From contig PAJV01000068.1 in assembly GCA_002706765.1 (NCBI GenBank), forward strand, positions 1-64,000: a stretch of 64,000 nt of DNA, read 5' to 3'. The notes below the pieces were generated by a model. It was not told the DNA's origin. It did no database searches and saw only the letters and a list, made by a program, of their open reading frames with translations. The position numbers were made by a program, and so were the translations under genes. Of this stretch, positions 54,717 to 58,290 are shown piece after piece. This stretch comes from Gimesia sp. Its GTDB lineage: Bacteria > Planctomycetota > Planctomycetia > Planctomycetales > Planctomycetaceae. Position 1 is the first letter of the stretch; each line of letters opens with the position of its first letter.

Positions 54717-55604
54717 TCAGAGCAGATGCGTTTTCATCCAGGTCAGGTATTCGCTGGCATAGGCATTCAGATTATCAAGGCTGCCTCCGCCGCGGATGGG
54801 AGAACACATTTCATAGGTGGCGATGCCATTGAAGCCGCCCTCTTTTAAGCCATGGAAGAACGCAGAGTAATCGATGAAACCCGTTCCGAATTTGACAGCG
54901 CGGACCAGATCCGGTTCCTGTCGCTGATAGTTGATGAGATCGGGCTGGTAAGTAAAGCGGGGCAACCTGATGTAGTCGGCATTGGTGGTGATTGCGGTAT
55001 GCGGGGCCATTTTGCGAGCGGCATCGAACAGGTTTTCGCCGCGCAGGGCAGGTGACCAGGCATCGAAGCCGAGTTTGCAGTTGGGGCGGTCGATATCAAA
55101 CAGGAGTTCCAGCAGGGCATCGGAATGAACACCGACATCGTGGTGGTTCTGAACGGCGACCGTCACGTTGAACTCAGCGGCCCGGTCACAGCATTCCTGT
55201 AACGCGGATACCGTCTGGTTCCAGAGTGCCTGGGGAGTCTGACGGGGAGAATCGTAGGCGGTAAATATGCGAACCGTCGAGGCGCCCAGCTGACTGGCGA
55301 TTTCCGCGAGTTGCTGGACGTATTGAATCTGCAGTTCGATCAGGGGAACTTCGGCTGCAGCAGACCCAGCAAAATCAGTATAGCCGCCGATGATGGCGCA
55401 ATTCACCCGGTGATGTTCGAGGGCTCCCTTGATGGATTCGATCAGTTCCGGAGAACTGTCAAGGGGAGCCAGATGGGGACGTTTTCCCATGAGCATCACG
55501 GAATCGTAGCCCAGTTTTGCAGACTGGGCGATGAATTCATTCAGGCTCAAGGCATGCTGTCCCCAGAAACCGGCATAACTGACTGAAAAAAGACAGAGCT
55601 TCAT
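54717..55604 (-). CDS. Xylose-isomerase-like TIM-barrel sugar isomerase/epimerase
   Basis: 295 residues. The AP-endonuclease-2/xylose-isomerase-like TIM barrel shows metal-ligand blocks AVQNHHDVGVHSDALLEL, DRPNCKLGFDAWSPALRG and GFNGIATYEMCSPI, with HRVNCAIIGGYTDFAG earlier. ATG 55604 is chosen for GGGAGT upstream. It lies 49 bp downstream of the DAHP synthase gene on the same strand and is probably co-transcribed, so the attenuator could control it too. No direct pathway link to aromatic biosynthesis is apparent; the enzyme might be a hydroxypyruvate isomerase or inositol-type epimerase relative. Confidence 0.85.
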   Translation of the reverse strand: MKLCLFSVSYAGFWGQHALSLNEFIAQSAKLGYDSVMLMGKRPHLAPLDSSPELIESIKGALEHHRVNCAIIGGYTDFAGSAAAEVPLIELQIQYVQQLAEIASQLGASTVRIFTAYDSPRQTPQALWNQTVSALQECCDRAAEFNVTVAVQNHHDVGVHSDALLELLFDIDRPNCKLGFDAWSPALRGENLFDAARKMAPHTAITTNADYIRLPRFTYQPDLINYQRQEPDLVRAVKFGTGFIDYSAFFHGLKEGGFNGIATYEMCSPIRGGGSLDNLNAYASEYLTWMKTHLL

Positions 55605-55653
55605 GAACGGACTCCCGGGAACAGGTCGCTTCAAATGATGGAGGACGGCTGGT

Positions 55654-56670
55654 TTATCCTAATTCTTTTCCGACGGCTGCTGCAACCTTGCGACAGAGAT
55701 CCATCGTTTGAGAGAAGGCATCCGGAGTCAGTGACTGGGCGCCATCACTCATGGCGCGGGAGGGATCCGGGTGAACTTCGAGGATCAGGCCATCACAGCC
55801 GGCGGCGATCGCAGCGGCACACATGGGAGGTACCAGGCTGGCGATGCCTGTCCCATGACTGGGATCGATGACGACGGGCAGGTGAGTGCGTTCATGCAGG
55901 TAAGGAACGGTGGCCAGCGGGAGTGTGAAACGGGTGTGTGTTTCGAATGTTCGTACGCCGCGTTCACAAAGCATCACCTGTTGATTGCCCTGATCGAGGA
56001 TGTATTCGGCAGCCAGGAGGAATTCTTCGATCGTGGCGGAAGGGCCGCGTTTGAGCAGAACGGGCAGACGGGTTTCGCCGACCGCCTGCAGGAGATGGTA
56101 GTTCTGCATATTGCGGGCGCCGATCTGCAGGACGTCGGCATACTGGCATAACAGATCAACATGGTTGGGTGTCATGACTTCCGTGACGACGGCGAGGCCG
56201 GTTTCTTCGCGTGCCAGTGCCAGGAGTTTGAGGCCTTCTTCTTTCATGCCCTGGAACGAGTAGGGACTGGTACGCGGCTTGAAGGCACCGCCTCGTAAAC
56301 CGGTGGCACCGGCGGCTTTGACCTGGTGGGCAACCTGCAGTATCTGTTCTTCACTTTCCACGGAGCAGGGACCCGCGATCACGCCGACATGGGAACCACC
56401 TATTTTGAGTCCGTGAGTGGTGACGATCGTAGGTTCGGGTTTGGTTTCTTTGCTGGCAACTTTATAAGCGGCGACGATCGGGACGACTTTTTCGACTTCC
56501 GCGCAGGATTCCAGTACTTCCTGGTGCCCGTCCCGTTTGATGCCGGCAGCGGCAATGACGGTCCGTTCTTCGCCGACGATGACATGGGCTTTGAGGCCCA
56601 TTTCTTCGACGCGTCTGACCATGGCCTGGACCATTTCTTCAGTAGCATTGGGTTTCATAACAACAATCAT
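55654..56670 (-). CDS. aroF: 3-deoxy-7-phosphoheptulonate (DAHP) synthase, type I-beta
   Basis: 338 residues. First enzyme of the shikimate pathway: condenses PEP and erythrose-4-phosphate to DAHP. The N-terminal ~70 residues are a ferredoxin-like regulatory domain (MIVVMKPNATEEMVQAMVRR). The barrel shows VIAGPCSVESEEQ (~105), GGAFKPRTSPYSFQG (~138), VVTEVM, LQIGARNMQNYHLL, LLKRGPSATIEEFLLAAEYI, PVVIDPSHGTG and EVHPDPSRAMSDG. The gene is preceded by a complete-looking Phe-rich attenuator, indicating control by charged tRNA-Phe. The isomerase gene follows in the same direction. Confidence 0.95.
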   Translation of the reverse strand: MIVVMKPNATEEMVQAMVRRVEEMGLKAHVIVGEERTVIAAAGIKRDGHQEVLESCAEVEKVVPIVAAYKVASKETKPEPTIVTTHGLKIGGSHVGVIAGPCSVESEEQILQVAHQVKAAGATGLRGGAFKPRTSPYSFQGMKEEGLKLLALAREETGLAVVTEVMTPNHVDLLCQYADVLQIGARNMQNYHLLQAVGETRLPVLLKRGPSATIEEFLLAAEYILDQGNQQVMLCERGVRTFETHTRFTLPLATVPYLHERTHLPVVIDPSHGTGIASLVPPMCAAAIAAGCDGLILEVHPDPSRAMSDGAQSLTPDAFSQTMDLCRKVAAAVGKELG

Positions 56671-56702
56671 GGCGTTGACTCATTTCTATTTCAGTCTCAG
56701 GG

Positions 56703-56739
56703 AATAAAAAAAGCCCTGTAACCAGTCAGGTTACAGGGC
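56703..56739 (-). terminator. Attenuator terminator upstream of aroF
   Basis: On the minus strand, stem GCCCTGTAACC (56739-56729) pairs with GGTTACAGGGC (56723-56713) around a 5-nt loop, 11 bp perfect, followed by TTTTTTTATT. It lies between the leader peptide stop and the aroF start codon, only 33 nt before the ATG. Its 5' arm contains GTAACCTG, which is the exact complement of CAGGTTAC inside the leader ORF (56802-56795), giving an alternative antiterminator. Confidence 0.85.
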
Positions 56740-56761
56740 CAATCGATTTCAGGGGTGTTCA

Positions 56762-56893
56762 TCAGTTATGAACGGTATGTATTCGATCGGTCAGGTAACC
56801 TGTGCCGGTAAACCAATAGCTCAAAAAGTGCCAGGCTGAAAAAAAGGACAGCCGCACAAAATTAAAGCTAAAAGTACCAAACCGATGTGTCAC
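56762..56893 (-). CDS. Phe-rich leader peptide of the aroF attenuator
   Basis: A 43-codon ORF starting with GTG at 56893 and ending TGA at 56764-56762; GGAG lies 7 nt upstream. The sequence begins MTHRFGTFSFNFV and continues RLSFFSAWHFLSYWF, with 8 Phe, 2 Trp and 2 Tyr in total, most within the first 28 residues, a composition like the pheL leader of E. coli. It ends in GTGYLTDRIHTVHN. It lies after a good promoter and before the terminator hairpin. Ribosome stalling at the Phe codons would free the antiterminator (56795-56802 with 56727-56734) and allow aroF transcription. The role is inferred from composition and structure. Confidence 0.8.
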   Translation of the reverse strand: MTHRFGTFSFNFVRLSFFSAWHFLSYWFTGTGYLTDRIHTVHN

Positions 56894-56961
56894 GGAGAAA
56901 CTCCAAAACGAACAAAATAGGATTTCTATCGAATTTCTTTCAATGGAAATCCAATGCGTAG

Positions 56962-56991
56962 ATCATACTCCTGTAGAACAAATCAAGTCAA
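56962..56991 (-). promoter_or_regulatory. Promoter of the aroF leader
   Basis: On the minus strand, -35 TTGACT (56991-56986, 5 of 6) is separated by 18 bp from -10 TATGAT (56967-56962, 5 of 6). Transcription would start near 56955, about 62 nt before the leader-peptide start. Confidence 0.7.
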
Positions 56992-57050
56992 CCGGGAAAA
57001 TCAAAAAGTTTCTCAATCGGTGTGAGAGCCAGACTGTTTCCGGTTTTCCT

Positions 57051-57124
57051 GTAGCGTCTGCAGAGCCCTTCGGACCGGGTATAATAGATCGAGAGCGGTT
57101 ATTGTAAAATGTGACGCGCTCTAG
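57051..57124 (+). repeat. 74-bp dispersed element, copy B
   Basis: Same 74-bp element as at 18118 and 61274; 57 of 74 positions match each of the other copies. Its terminal CTAG supplies, on the minus strand, the TAG stop codon of the gene at 57121-58059, so the element touches the end of that reading frame. Confidence 0.75.
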
Positions 57125-58059
57125 AAATGAGGTCCCTTGGGACTTCGCTTATGGAGATGTGAAAAGCTGATGCCCTGGTTGGGGGGAGTGGCTTTGATTC
57201 CCTGTTGCTTCTGGCCCGTTGGTTTGAAGTGTGGAGGCTTTGTCGTCGTGGCAGCAGAGCCCGGGAGTGGTATGCGAAACAGCTCCGGAATTCGATCCGG
57301 GTGTGTTTCGTCGGCGAATCCACTGCGTGAGATGCGAATCTGCTGGATCGATTTCATCAGCGCGGACTGGTGGAAGCAGTCTGCAGGGTAACAGGCCATG
57401 ATGGTTGCGAGCATTTTTTCCCAGTGGTCACTGCTCTGACTGGTCAGTCCGGCTGGGAACGAAATGCGTAAACCGGCTGTGATCAGTTCCCAGGTTTGAA
57501 CGGGAGAAGGGGCATTCAGGTTCGTTGCCTGGTCTTCTCCAAAATCGCGGGCGCGTTCCGGTTCGTGCGCAAATTCCTGCATGTTGTAGCGCAGTACAAA
57601 CTGCCCCAGCATCAGATCGGTCCAGCGTTCGATGGACCGTCTCGTACGATTGATTCGTTTAAGTGCCTCGAGACTCAGATGATTTTCTGCCACCATTACT
57701 GCCAGCACAACTCGTTTCAGATCCAGAAATGCCAGAAAAAGACTGCGTGCGATTGGTTCTGCCTGACACTGTTTCCGCTTTTGATCTGTAGCCGCGAAAA
57801 CTGTCGTGACGATTCGTATCAGCATTTCTTCGGCGAAGAAATCTTTGAAGATGACTTCGAGTTCTGATTCCGAGAGATCTTGCGGAATATCAGATTGTGC
57901 CAGCGGCTCAAGTATACGTCGTCGTTGTTTCAGATGTTCCTGCCCGTGATACCAGAAGTCACAGAGTACGTCGGACGAAAAGGGGGCTGTTCCTTCAATG
58001 AGAGCAAGACTTTGAGATGCAATGACTGCTGTGATTTCTGCGGTAATTTGCGAATTCAA
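57121..58059 (-). CDS. Unrecognised protein, C terminus set by a dispersed element
   Basis: 312 residues; no family recognised. It is largely alpha-helical (for example LKQRRRILEPLAQS, ARSLFLAFLDLKRVVLAVMV, ALKRINRTRRSIERWTDLML), with a low-complexity basic/Pro-rich C-terminal ~60 residues (TTTKPPHFKPTGQKQQGIKA ... HKRSPKGPHF). The start is TTG 58059, with no convincing Shine-Dalgarno, so the true start is uncertain. The stop codon lies inside the 74-bp element copy B, so the original C terminus may have been altered by its arrival. No signal peptide or membrane segment is apparent. Confidence 0.65.
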   Translation of the reverse strand: MNSQITAEITAVIASQSLALIEGTAPFSSDVLCDFWYHGQEHLKQRRRILEPLAQSDIPQDLSESELEVIFKDFFAEEMLIRIVTTVFAATDQKRKQCQAEPIARSLFLAFLDLKRVVLAVMVAENHLSLEALKRINRTRRSIERWTDLMLGQFVLRYNMQEFAHEPERARDFGEDQATNLNAPSPVQTWELITAGLRISFPAGLTSQSSDHWEKMLATIMACYPADCFHQSALMKSIQQIRISRSGFADETHPDRIPELFRIPLPGSAATTTKPPHFKPTGQKQQGIKATPPNQGISFSHLHKRSPKGPHF

Positions 58060-58290
58060 TGGAATGCCGTTCTGCCTTGAGAGTGAAATGACCCGGAGCC
58101 TGGAATCACGAAGAATTCCAATACTTTCTCTGGCAGGGTAAACGCAAACGGAATACCACTTTCATGGGGAATCGTAAGTCTGTTCCTAAAGACCGTTCTT
58201 AGAACGGCTTATGAGGGAAGAGCACTTATCGAATTAATAACCCGTGATGACTTAATCCATCGGCGTGTTGCTCAAAATCAACATGTGGTT

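Follow-up and report, generated by a model that had tools for sequence, protein, structure and literature searches.

In the window analyzed here, a stretch of 64,000 nucleotides from a Gimesia sp. contig, the gene for DAHP synthase, the enzyme at the entry to the shikimate pathway, is preceded by a short reading frame rich in aromatic codons and by a predicted intrinsic terminator. Does this locus control the enzyme according to the supply of amino acids and, if so, which amino acids would it read? A sequence-only reading had proposed a Phe attenuator and had taken proteobacterial pheA/pheL-type leaders as its precedent. Based on the anatomy of the locus, its conservation and its modelled folding, we favor, at a probability of about 0.9, a classical ribosome-mediated transcription attenuator that would sense the charging of tRNA-Phe, tRNA-Tyr and tRNA-Trp together. 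The whole element sits between the end of an upstream 312-aa open reading frame (57121) and the DAHP synthase ATG (56670). Comparison of the upstream frame itself (57121-58059, minus strand) with NCBIfam and Pfam gave no match at E 0.001. The parts of the locus, assigned from sequence and folding, are listed below.

56962..56991, minus strand: sigma-70-like promoter, TTGACT (56991-56986), an 18-nt spacer and TATGAT (56967-56962)
56901..56904, minus strand: Shine-Dalgarno-like GGAG, 7 nt 5' of the GTG, invariant in the genus alignment
56762..56893, minus strand: leader ORF of 43 codons, GTG at 56893, stop at 56764-56762, from the ORF translation
56875..56886, minus strand: region 1, predicted to pair with 56797-56786 (protector stem)
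56783..56802, minus strand: region 2, the antiterminator 5' arm, beginning 7 nt past codon Phe28
56757..56773, minus strand: small predicted hairpin GTTCAT/ATGAAC inside the antiterminator, overlapping the leader stop codon
56727..56746, minus strand: region 3, the 3' arm predicted for the antiterminator, sharing bases with the 5' arm of the terminator
56712..56740, minus strand: predicted intrinsic terminator hairpin (3:4), 11 Watson-Crick pairs and one G-U, -22.1 kcal/mol
56706..56711, minus strand: T tract of the terminator, six T
55654..56670, minus strand: DAHP synthase with ferredoxin-like domain, the putatively regulated gene, 338 aa, ATG at 56670 (NF006421, TIGR01361, PF00793, PF18152)
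54717..55634, minus strand: xylose-isomerase-like TIM barrel, a possible operon partner, 19 nt 3' of the DAHP synthase stop if a TTG start is used

The promoter, the 43-codon GTG leader with its Phe, Trp and Tyr codons and the 11-bp terminator with its T run had all been described in the sequence-only reading, and each was confirmed. The leader peptide, MTHRFGTFSFNFVRLSFFSAWHFLSYWFTGTGYLTDRIHTVHN, contains eight Phe (all encoded by TTT), two Trp and two Tyr, an aromatic share of 12/43 compared with 7.6% in six neighboring reading frames. A leader segment, CAGGTTAC (56802-56795), is the exact complement of GTAACCTG (56734-56727), as had been noted before; the latter had been assigned to the terminator 5' arm, and its last two bases in fact fall in the terminator loop, outside the arm. 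The predicted fold of 56960-56705 lies 5.3 sd below that of 200 shuffles. The promoter pattern, taken alone, is not clearly above chance (3 seen and 1.6 expected in 55500-58100). Leader ORF with ribosome binding site, control-codon cluster, terminator, mutually exclusive antiterminator and 1:2 stem, features by which an attenuator is recognized from sequence and folding, are present. A longer antiterminator, the protector stem and an invariant Tyr-Trp-Phe were added by the present analysis. Cotranscription of the TIM-barrel gene with DAHP synthase is possible.

We infer the start site, translation, stalling, termination and amino acid response from this anatomy and from models of RNA folding, and they would combine as follows. 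Transcription would start near 56955, and a ribosome translating the 43-codon leader would open the 1:2 protector stem. Shortage of any aromatic tRNA would stall this ribosome no later than Tyr26-Trp27-Phe28. Region 2 would then be exposed and could pair with region 3 while region 4 has yet to be synthesized, so that no terminator would form and DAHP synthase would be transcribed. With all three aromatic amino acids plentiful, the ribosome would run over region 2, the 3:4 hairpin would form and transcription would stop near 56706. A leader that is not translated would form 1:2 first, and termination would be expected here too. A stalled ribosome would thus probably let DAHP synthase be expressed when any one of the three aromatic amino acids is short.

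Folding of both states, which had been suggested as a check, did yield mutually exclusive 2:3 and 3:4 pairings. The antiterminator (56802-56783 with 56746-56727) has a minimum free energy of -26.8 kcal/mol, its small inner hairpin included, compared with the value listed above for the terminator. The sequential states were computed with one simple folding model and assumed ribosome and polymerase footprints; the ribosome was taken to cover 14 nt from the first A-site base, and only RNA 3' of it was folded. With the A site at any of the 11 tested aromatic codons (codons 5-28), the probability of 2:3 was 0.84-1.00 before region 4 emerged, and with the A site at codon 31 region 2 was covered by the ribosome. 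Before region 3 was made, 1:2 paired with a probability of 0.5-1.0 at 11 of its 12 positions. Once the RNA was complete, 3:4 prevailed in all of the modelled states (0.59-0.99, and 0.59-0.97 with the A site at codons 5-28), and with no ribosome and region 4 absent 2:3 was favored as well. Because the terminator is preferred at full length even with a stalled ribosome, and 2:3 is preferred before region 4 even with no ribosome, the modelled switch must be kinetic. A kinetic decision is also typical of known attenuators. The leader stop codon lies about 20 nt past region 2 in the genus, so a ribosome waiting there would not cover region 2.

Orthologs of the enzyme, one of which is a fragment, were found in 17/17 genus genomes with identities of 92-100%, all with leader and terminator, and the order of promoter, leader, antiterminator arm and terminator was the same throughout. 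Absence of the codon cluster or of the terminator in close relatives had been named as the observation that would speak against attenuation; such relatives were looked for in the genus, and none was found. The promoter hexamers (TTGACT and TATGAT/TATTAT) and their 18-nt spacing are kept in all 17 genomes in spite of divergence in the spacer sequence and in the 5' untranslated part. Six aromatic codons (Phe8, Phe10, Trp21, Tyr26, Trp27 and Phe28) are invariant in 15/15 distinct alignment rows, while Phe codons 5, 12, 17, 18 and 23 vary. Many non-aromatic leader codons are also invariant in the genus, and conservation by itself is therefore not enough to identify the control codons. What sets them apart is position: the aromatic codons closest to the antiterminator arm are the invariant Tyr26-Trp27-Phe28, the last of which ends 7 nt before region 2.

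Variable sites at codon positions 1, 2 and 3 of codons 2-28 number 9, 8 and 7, and this lack of a third-position excess means that the alignment gives no independent proof of leader translation. A one-base insertion 3' of region 2 in some rows shifts the frame and alters the tail of the peptide. In the 1:2 and 3:4 stems, 96.1% of alignment cells are paired, and the protector stem, with 11 of 12 positions pairing, survives wobble and single-side changes within the genus. No pair of either stem has changed on both sides, the genus rows being too alike, and covariation thus cannot be claimed inside the genus. Past region 1 and ahead of the control codons, the leader ORF contains an additional stem, which pairs 56857-56849 with 56838-56828 (columns 40-48 and 59-69 of genus alignment A2); one of its pairs is A-U for G-C in three genomes, two of which break another pair.

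To follow the element beyond the genus, the protein was searched for in 150 family, 148 class and 195 phylum genomes, and up to 450 nt upstream were examined for a sample of orthologs picked from the match tables blind to the upstream sequence. A fixed rule was applied: at least five F/W/Y in 10 residues, followed at a distance of 20-190 nt by a terminator with eight or more effective pairs. Five loci with too little upstream sequence (L041, L229, L179, L202 and L223) and one whose gene start was not found (L051) were left out of the counts. A cluster with its terminator was found at 17/17 genus loci, 47/66 loci from other genera of the family (28/37 genera), 20/43 loci from other families of the class (7/15 families) and 8/17 named planctomycete loci. 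For other classes of the phylum the count was 11/39 (families f45, f52, f60 and f70), in a sample made of the best 40 of 168 genomes with a match and therefore leaning towards close homologs. Some of the named loci appear to share their contigs with unnamed loci (L147 and L081, for instance, whose contigs are equal in length), and the group counts are therefore not to be summed. Among controls for all sampled loci, the rule picked out 0/246 reverse complements and 4/2460 dinucleotide shuffles. An aromatic-cluster ORF with no terminator required is less special than the full combination, being present in 124/246 real sequences, 13/246 reverse complements and 165/2460 shuffles; 30 of these 165 arose among the genus sequences, which are T-rich and contributed 170 shuffles.

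The rule is conservative, and some of its misses, which include 19/66 family orthologs and 23/43 in other families of the class, look like failures of detection. Five such loci (L055, L057, L119, L131 and L133) have aromatic leaders with no passing terminator, and two (L044 and L127) fall short by one residue. Other loci that the rule missed have no leader and terminator, and in genus g56 the apparent end of another gene stands there instead. A DAHP synthase paralog of about 50% identity gave 0/4 under the same rule and 1/24 in a second scan, where the single match is an ORF that we take for the end of an upstream gene. In some genomes this paralog seems to be placed after pheA (prephenate dehydratase), with no leader (L146, L328, L337 and similar loci), and in one (G166) the two genes adjoin on one strand.

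Outside the phylum, 6/60 loci had both cluster and terminator, compared with 0/60 reverse complements and 2/600 shuffles. These F/Y/W leaders (L166, L184, L181, L200, L207 and L213, with L165 as a further one that has no passing terminator) come from records of Geomonas propionica, a Geobacteraceae bacterium, Chloroflexi, Lachnospiraceae, Calditrichota and Acidobacteria, and the two leaders from Geobacteraceae (L166 and L184) are similar to one another. In other phyla the aromatic ORF by itself shows hardly any enrichment (9/60 versus 6/60 on the reverse strand).

Between genera no common peptide sequence is visible, and stem lengths and spacers vary. What recurs is aromatic content in a given place, illustrated by the cluster ends AFYFWFTGF (L043), WYGFYFWFTT (L067), TYWFWFYFTPTG (L136) and CYWVFYYFKYYYKRG (L246), followed by an arm complementary to the terminator 5' arm that changes between genera in step with the terminator (29 loci). 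When a locus was counted as having an antiterminator only if at most 5 of 100 base-shuffled regions matched its real duplex, 88/109 loci passed: 17/17 in the genus, 39/47 in the family, 16/20 in the class, 7/11 in the phylum and 7/8 among named loci. The figure for other phyla was 2/6, and this weak result makes those six loci leads rather than established members.

Which signal would the leader read? DAHP synthase supplies the Phe, Tyr and Trp pathways alike. In the original proposal Phe codons were the signal, which would make the Trp and Tyr codons incidental. Phe does predominate, making up 8 of 43 leader codons and 62/122 of the aromatic residues counted in cluster windows from the genus; Phe8 and Phe10 do not vary; and the Phe-Tyr-Phe aroR leader before aroF of Corynebacterium glutamicum is reported, in the available sections of two papers, to answer to Phe and not to Tyr (PMC11802643, PMC4046766). 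Across genera, on the other hand, 0/109 clusters are Phe-only and 94/109 contain all three aromatic residues; in Gimesia a Tyr, a Trp and a Phe are each fixed nearest region 2, where the control codons would act, while five other Phe codons drift; and the enzyme feeds all three pathways. The part of the proposal that invoked amino acid attenuation is thus upheld by the anatomy, the genus conservation and the recurrence in class and phylum, and its restriction to Phe we regard as unlikely. Much the same RNA switch would result if the nascent peptide itself arrested the ribosome by sensing an aromatic or other ligand in the exit tunnel rather than an empty tRNA, as with TnaC, an example of a ligand-sensing arrest peptide. 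The peptide is well conserved within the genus, as such a mechanism would predict, but since only aromatic content and position, and no peptide sequence, are kept between genera, we judge arrest of this type decidedly unlikely.

The reading frame could also encode a small functional or membrane protein that has its own terminator and stands before DAHP synthase by coincidence, and its GGAG site and hydrophobic stretches would fit such a protein. F, W and Y together have only five codons. Yet F+W+Y is the commonest residue triple at six or more of 10 residues in the leader position (63/148 sequences; next F+G+W, 56), and L+I+V, expected of membrane helices, is outside the twelve commonest. The ORF had no Pfam match, no common peptide is found outside the genus, and region 2 matches the terminator, all of which makes a coincidental small protein highly improbable. 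Equally remote is control by a T-box or another directly ligand-binding RNA. Tyrosine operons of other bacteria are said to be under T-box control, according to the part of a survey available (PMC1262725), but Rfam families at gathering score numbered 0 in 20 representative loci, matches in the window were all below that score, and a published survey that included one planctomycete genome recorded no T-box there. A T-box or riboswitch was rejected on these scans. The sub-threshold matches in the window were to NsiR1, mir-7918 and trpB; that to trpB occurs on both strands, and they were taken as terminator look-alikes. Ribosome-mediated attenuation responding to all three aromatic amino acids remains the reading that we prefer.

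Is the same device used elsewhere in amino acid synthesis? For each of the other genes, between 21 and 30 related genomes were searched, the genus contributing 17 or 13 of these, and the loci were scanned solely for intrinsic terminators of at least nine effective pairs with a codon cluster; a few loci were cut by contig ends. The thresholds per 10 residues were at least four F/W/Y for trpE and pheA, four F for pheS, five L/I/V for ilvB and three H for hisG. A leader with matching codons and a terminator was found at 0/30 trpE-family, 0/29 pheA, 0/19 pheS, 0/20 ilvB and 0/20 hisG loci, and a wider aromatic regulon using this device was accordingly not found at the trpE-family, pheA and pheS loci examined. 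At leuA, 16/20 loci have a Leu leader with a terminator, with runs such as MRNYNLLNLNLLRSLLLPARS, compared with 0/20 reverse complements and 0/400 mononucleotide shuffles. In the source genome itself, leuA (L378, contig C10 of G000) is preceded by a Leu-rich leader, MKKQNKMHIHNLLNLSLLRNLLL, and a strong terminator; the other leuA leaders are at L370-L374, L376, L377 and L379-L386. The leuA leader is likely a second attenuator. With leaders at leuA and DAHP synthase and none at the other loci, attenuation seems to serve two pathways at their entry points; within aromatic synthesis, judging from these sequences, its place seems to be the common entry and not the Phe or Trp branch.

The E. coli pheL-pheA, pheST and trpL-trp attenuators consist of a leader peptide, control codons and exclusive 1:2, 2:3 and 3:4 pairings. 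The element described here shares with them the control-codon leader and the mutually exclusive pairings. The E. coli systems, however, sit at terminal branches or at a tRNA synthetase, and each responds to a single amino acid; the planctomycete pheA, trpE and pheS loci examined, unlike those of E. coli, show no such leaders. Multivalent leaders that read several amino acids of one pathway family are known from ilvGMEDA and thrABC; these differ in using branched-chain or Thr/Ile codons, not aromatic ones, and in not controlling DAHP synthase. The aroR transcript of C. glutamicum is reportedly leaderless, whereas the locus described here has a GGAG and, by prediction, a 5' leader.

The pheA/pheL precedent that had been cited before leaves out two closer cases at DAHP synthase genes, C. 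glutamicum aroR and the Acholeplasma element uORFC-13-1. As in the Gimesia element, a short leader ORF in which aromatic codons stand side by side precedes the DAHP synthase gene, but in the available sections of its description aroR involves two aromatic amino acids, with Trp not mentioned and Tyr without effect, and it belongs to an actinobacterium. The likeness noted is one of function only. A predicted uORF attenuator before aroF of Acholeplasma, uORFC-13-1 also stands before DAHP synthase with a possible promoter, a ribosome binding site, Phe codon(s) and a terminator stem; as far as the excerpted account goes, it comprises 24 sequences from Acholeplasma and environmental sources only, has at least one Phe from its U run, and is described with no Tyr/Trp cluster (PMC8632094). 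Attenuation of E. coli aroF is cited as a hypothesis in the same excerpts (PMC8632094). In actinobacteria, a survey found no element ahead of the phenylalanine or tyrosine operons, in the portion available (PMC1262725). Planctomycete leader genes have been counted by distance in a study whose main text does not contain phenylalanine, aroF or DAHP (PMC4833913). No planctomycete ribosome-mediated attenuator was found in print by title or abstract in searches on attenuation or leader peptides combined with planctomycetes, DAHP synthase, Geobacter and leuA.

The distribution raises the thought, which we advance tentatively and hold at somewhat less than even odds, that a leader reading three aromatic amino acids at the entry to the shikimate pathway may be old and widespread, running through several classes of Planctomycetota and into other phyla, and that together with the leuA leaders it would imply close coupling of transcription and translation at these genes in planctomycetes. 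Attenuation requires a ribosome close behind RNA polymerase, and the finding would therefore bear on the question of coupling in planctomycetes. For Gemmata, about which no claim is made here, translation is reported to be confined to non-nucleoid regions, in a passage citing other work (PMC5287468), and other authors, in the section available, favor an ordinary Gram-negative cell plan for planctomycetes (PMC5394234). The combination of cluster and terminator also offers a way to find a class of short genes that have gone unannotated. If the proposed mechanism is true, a single leader peptide would integrate the supply of all three aromatic amino acids at the point where their synthesis begins.
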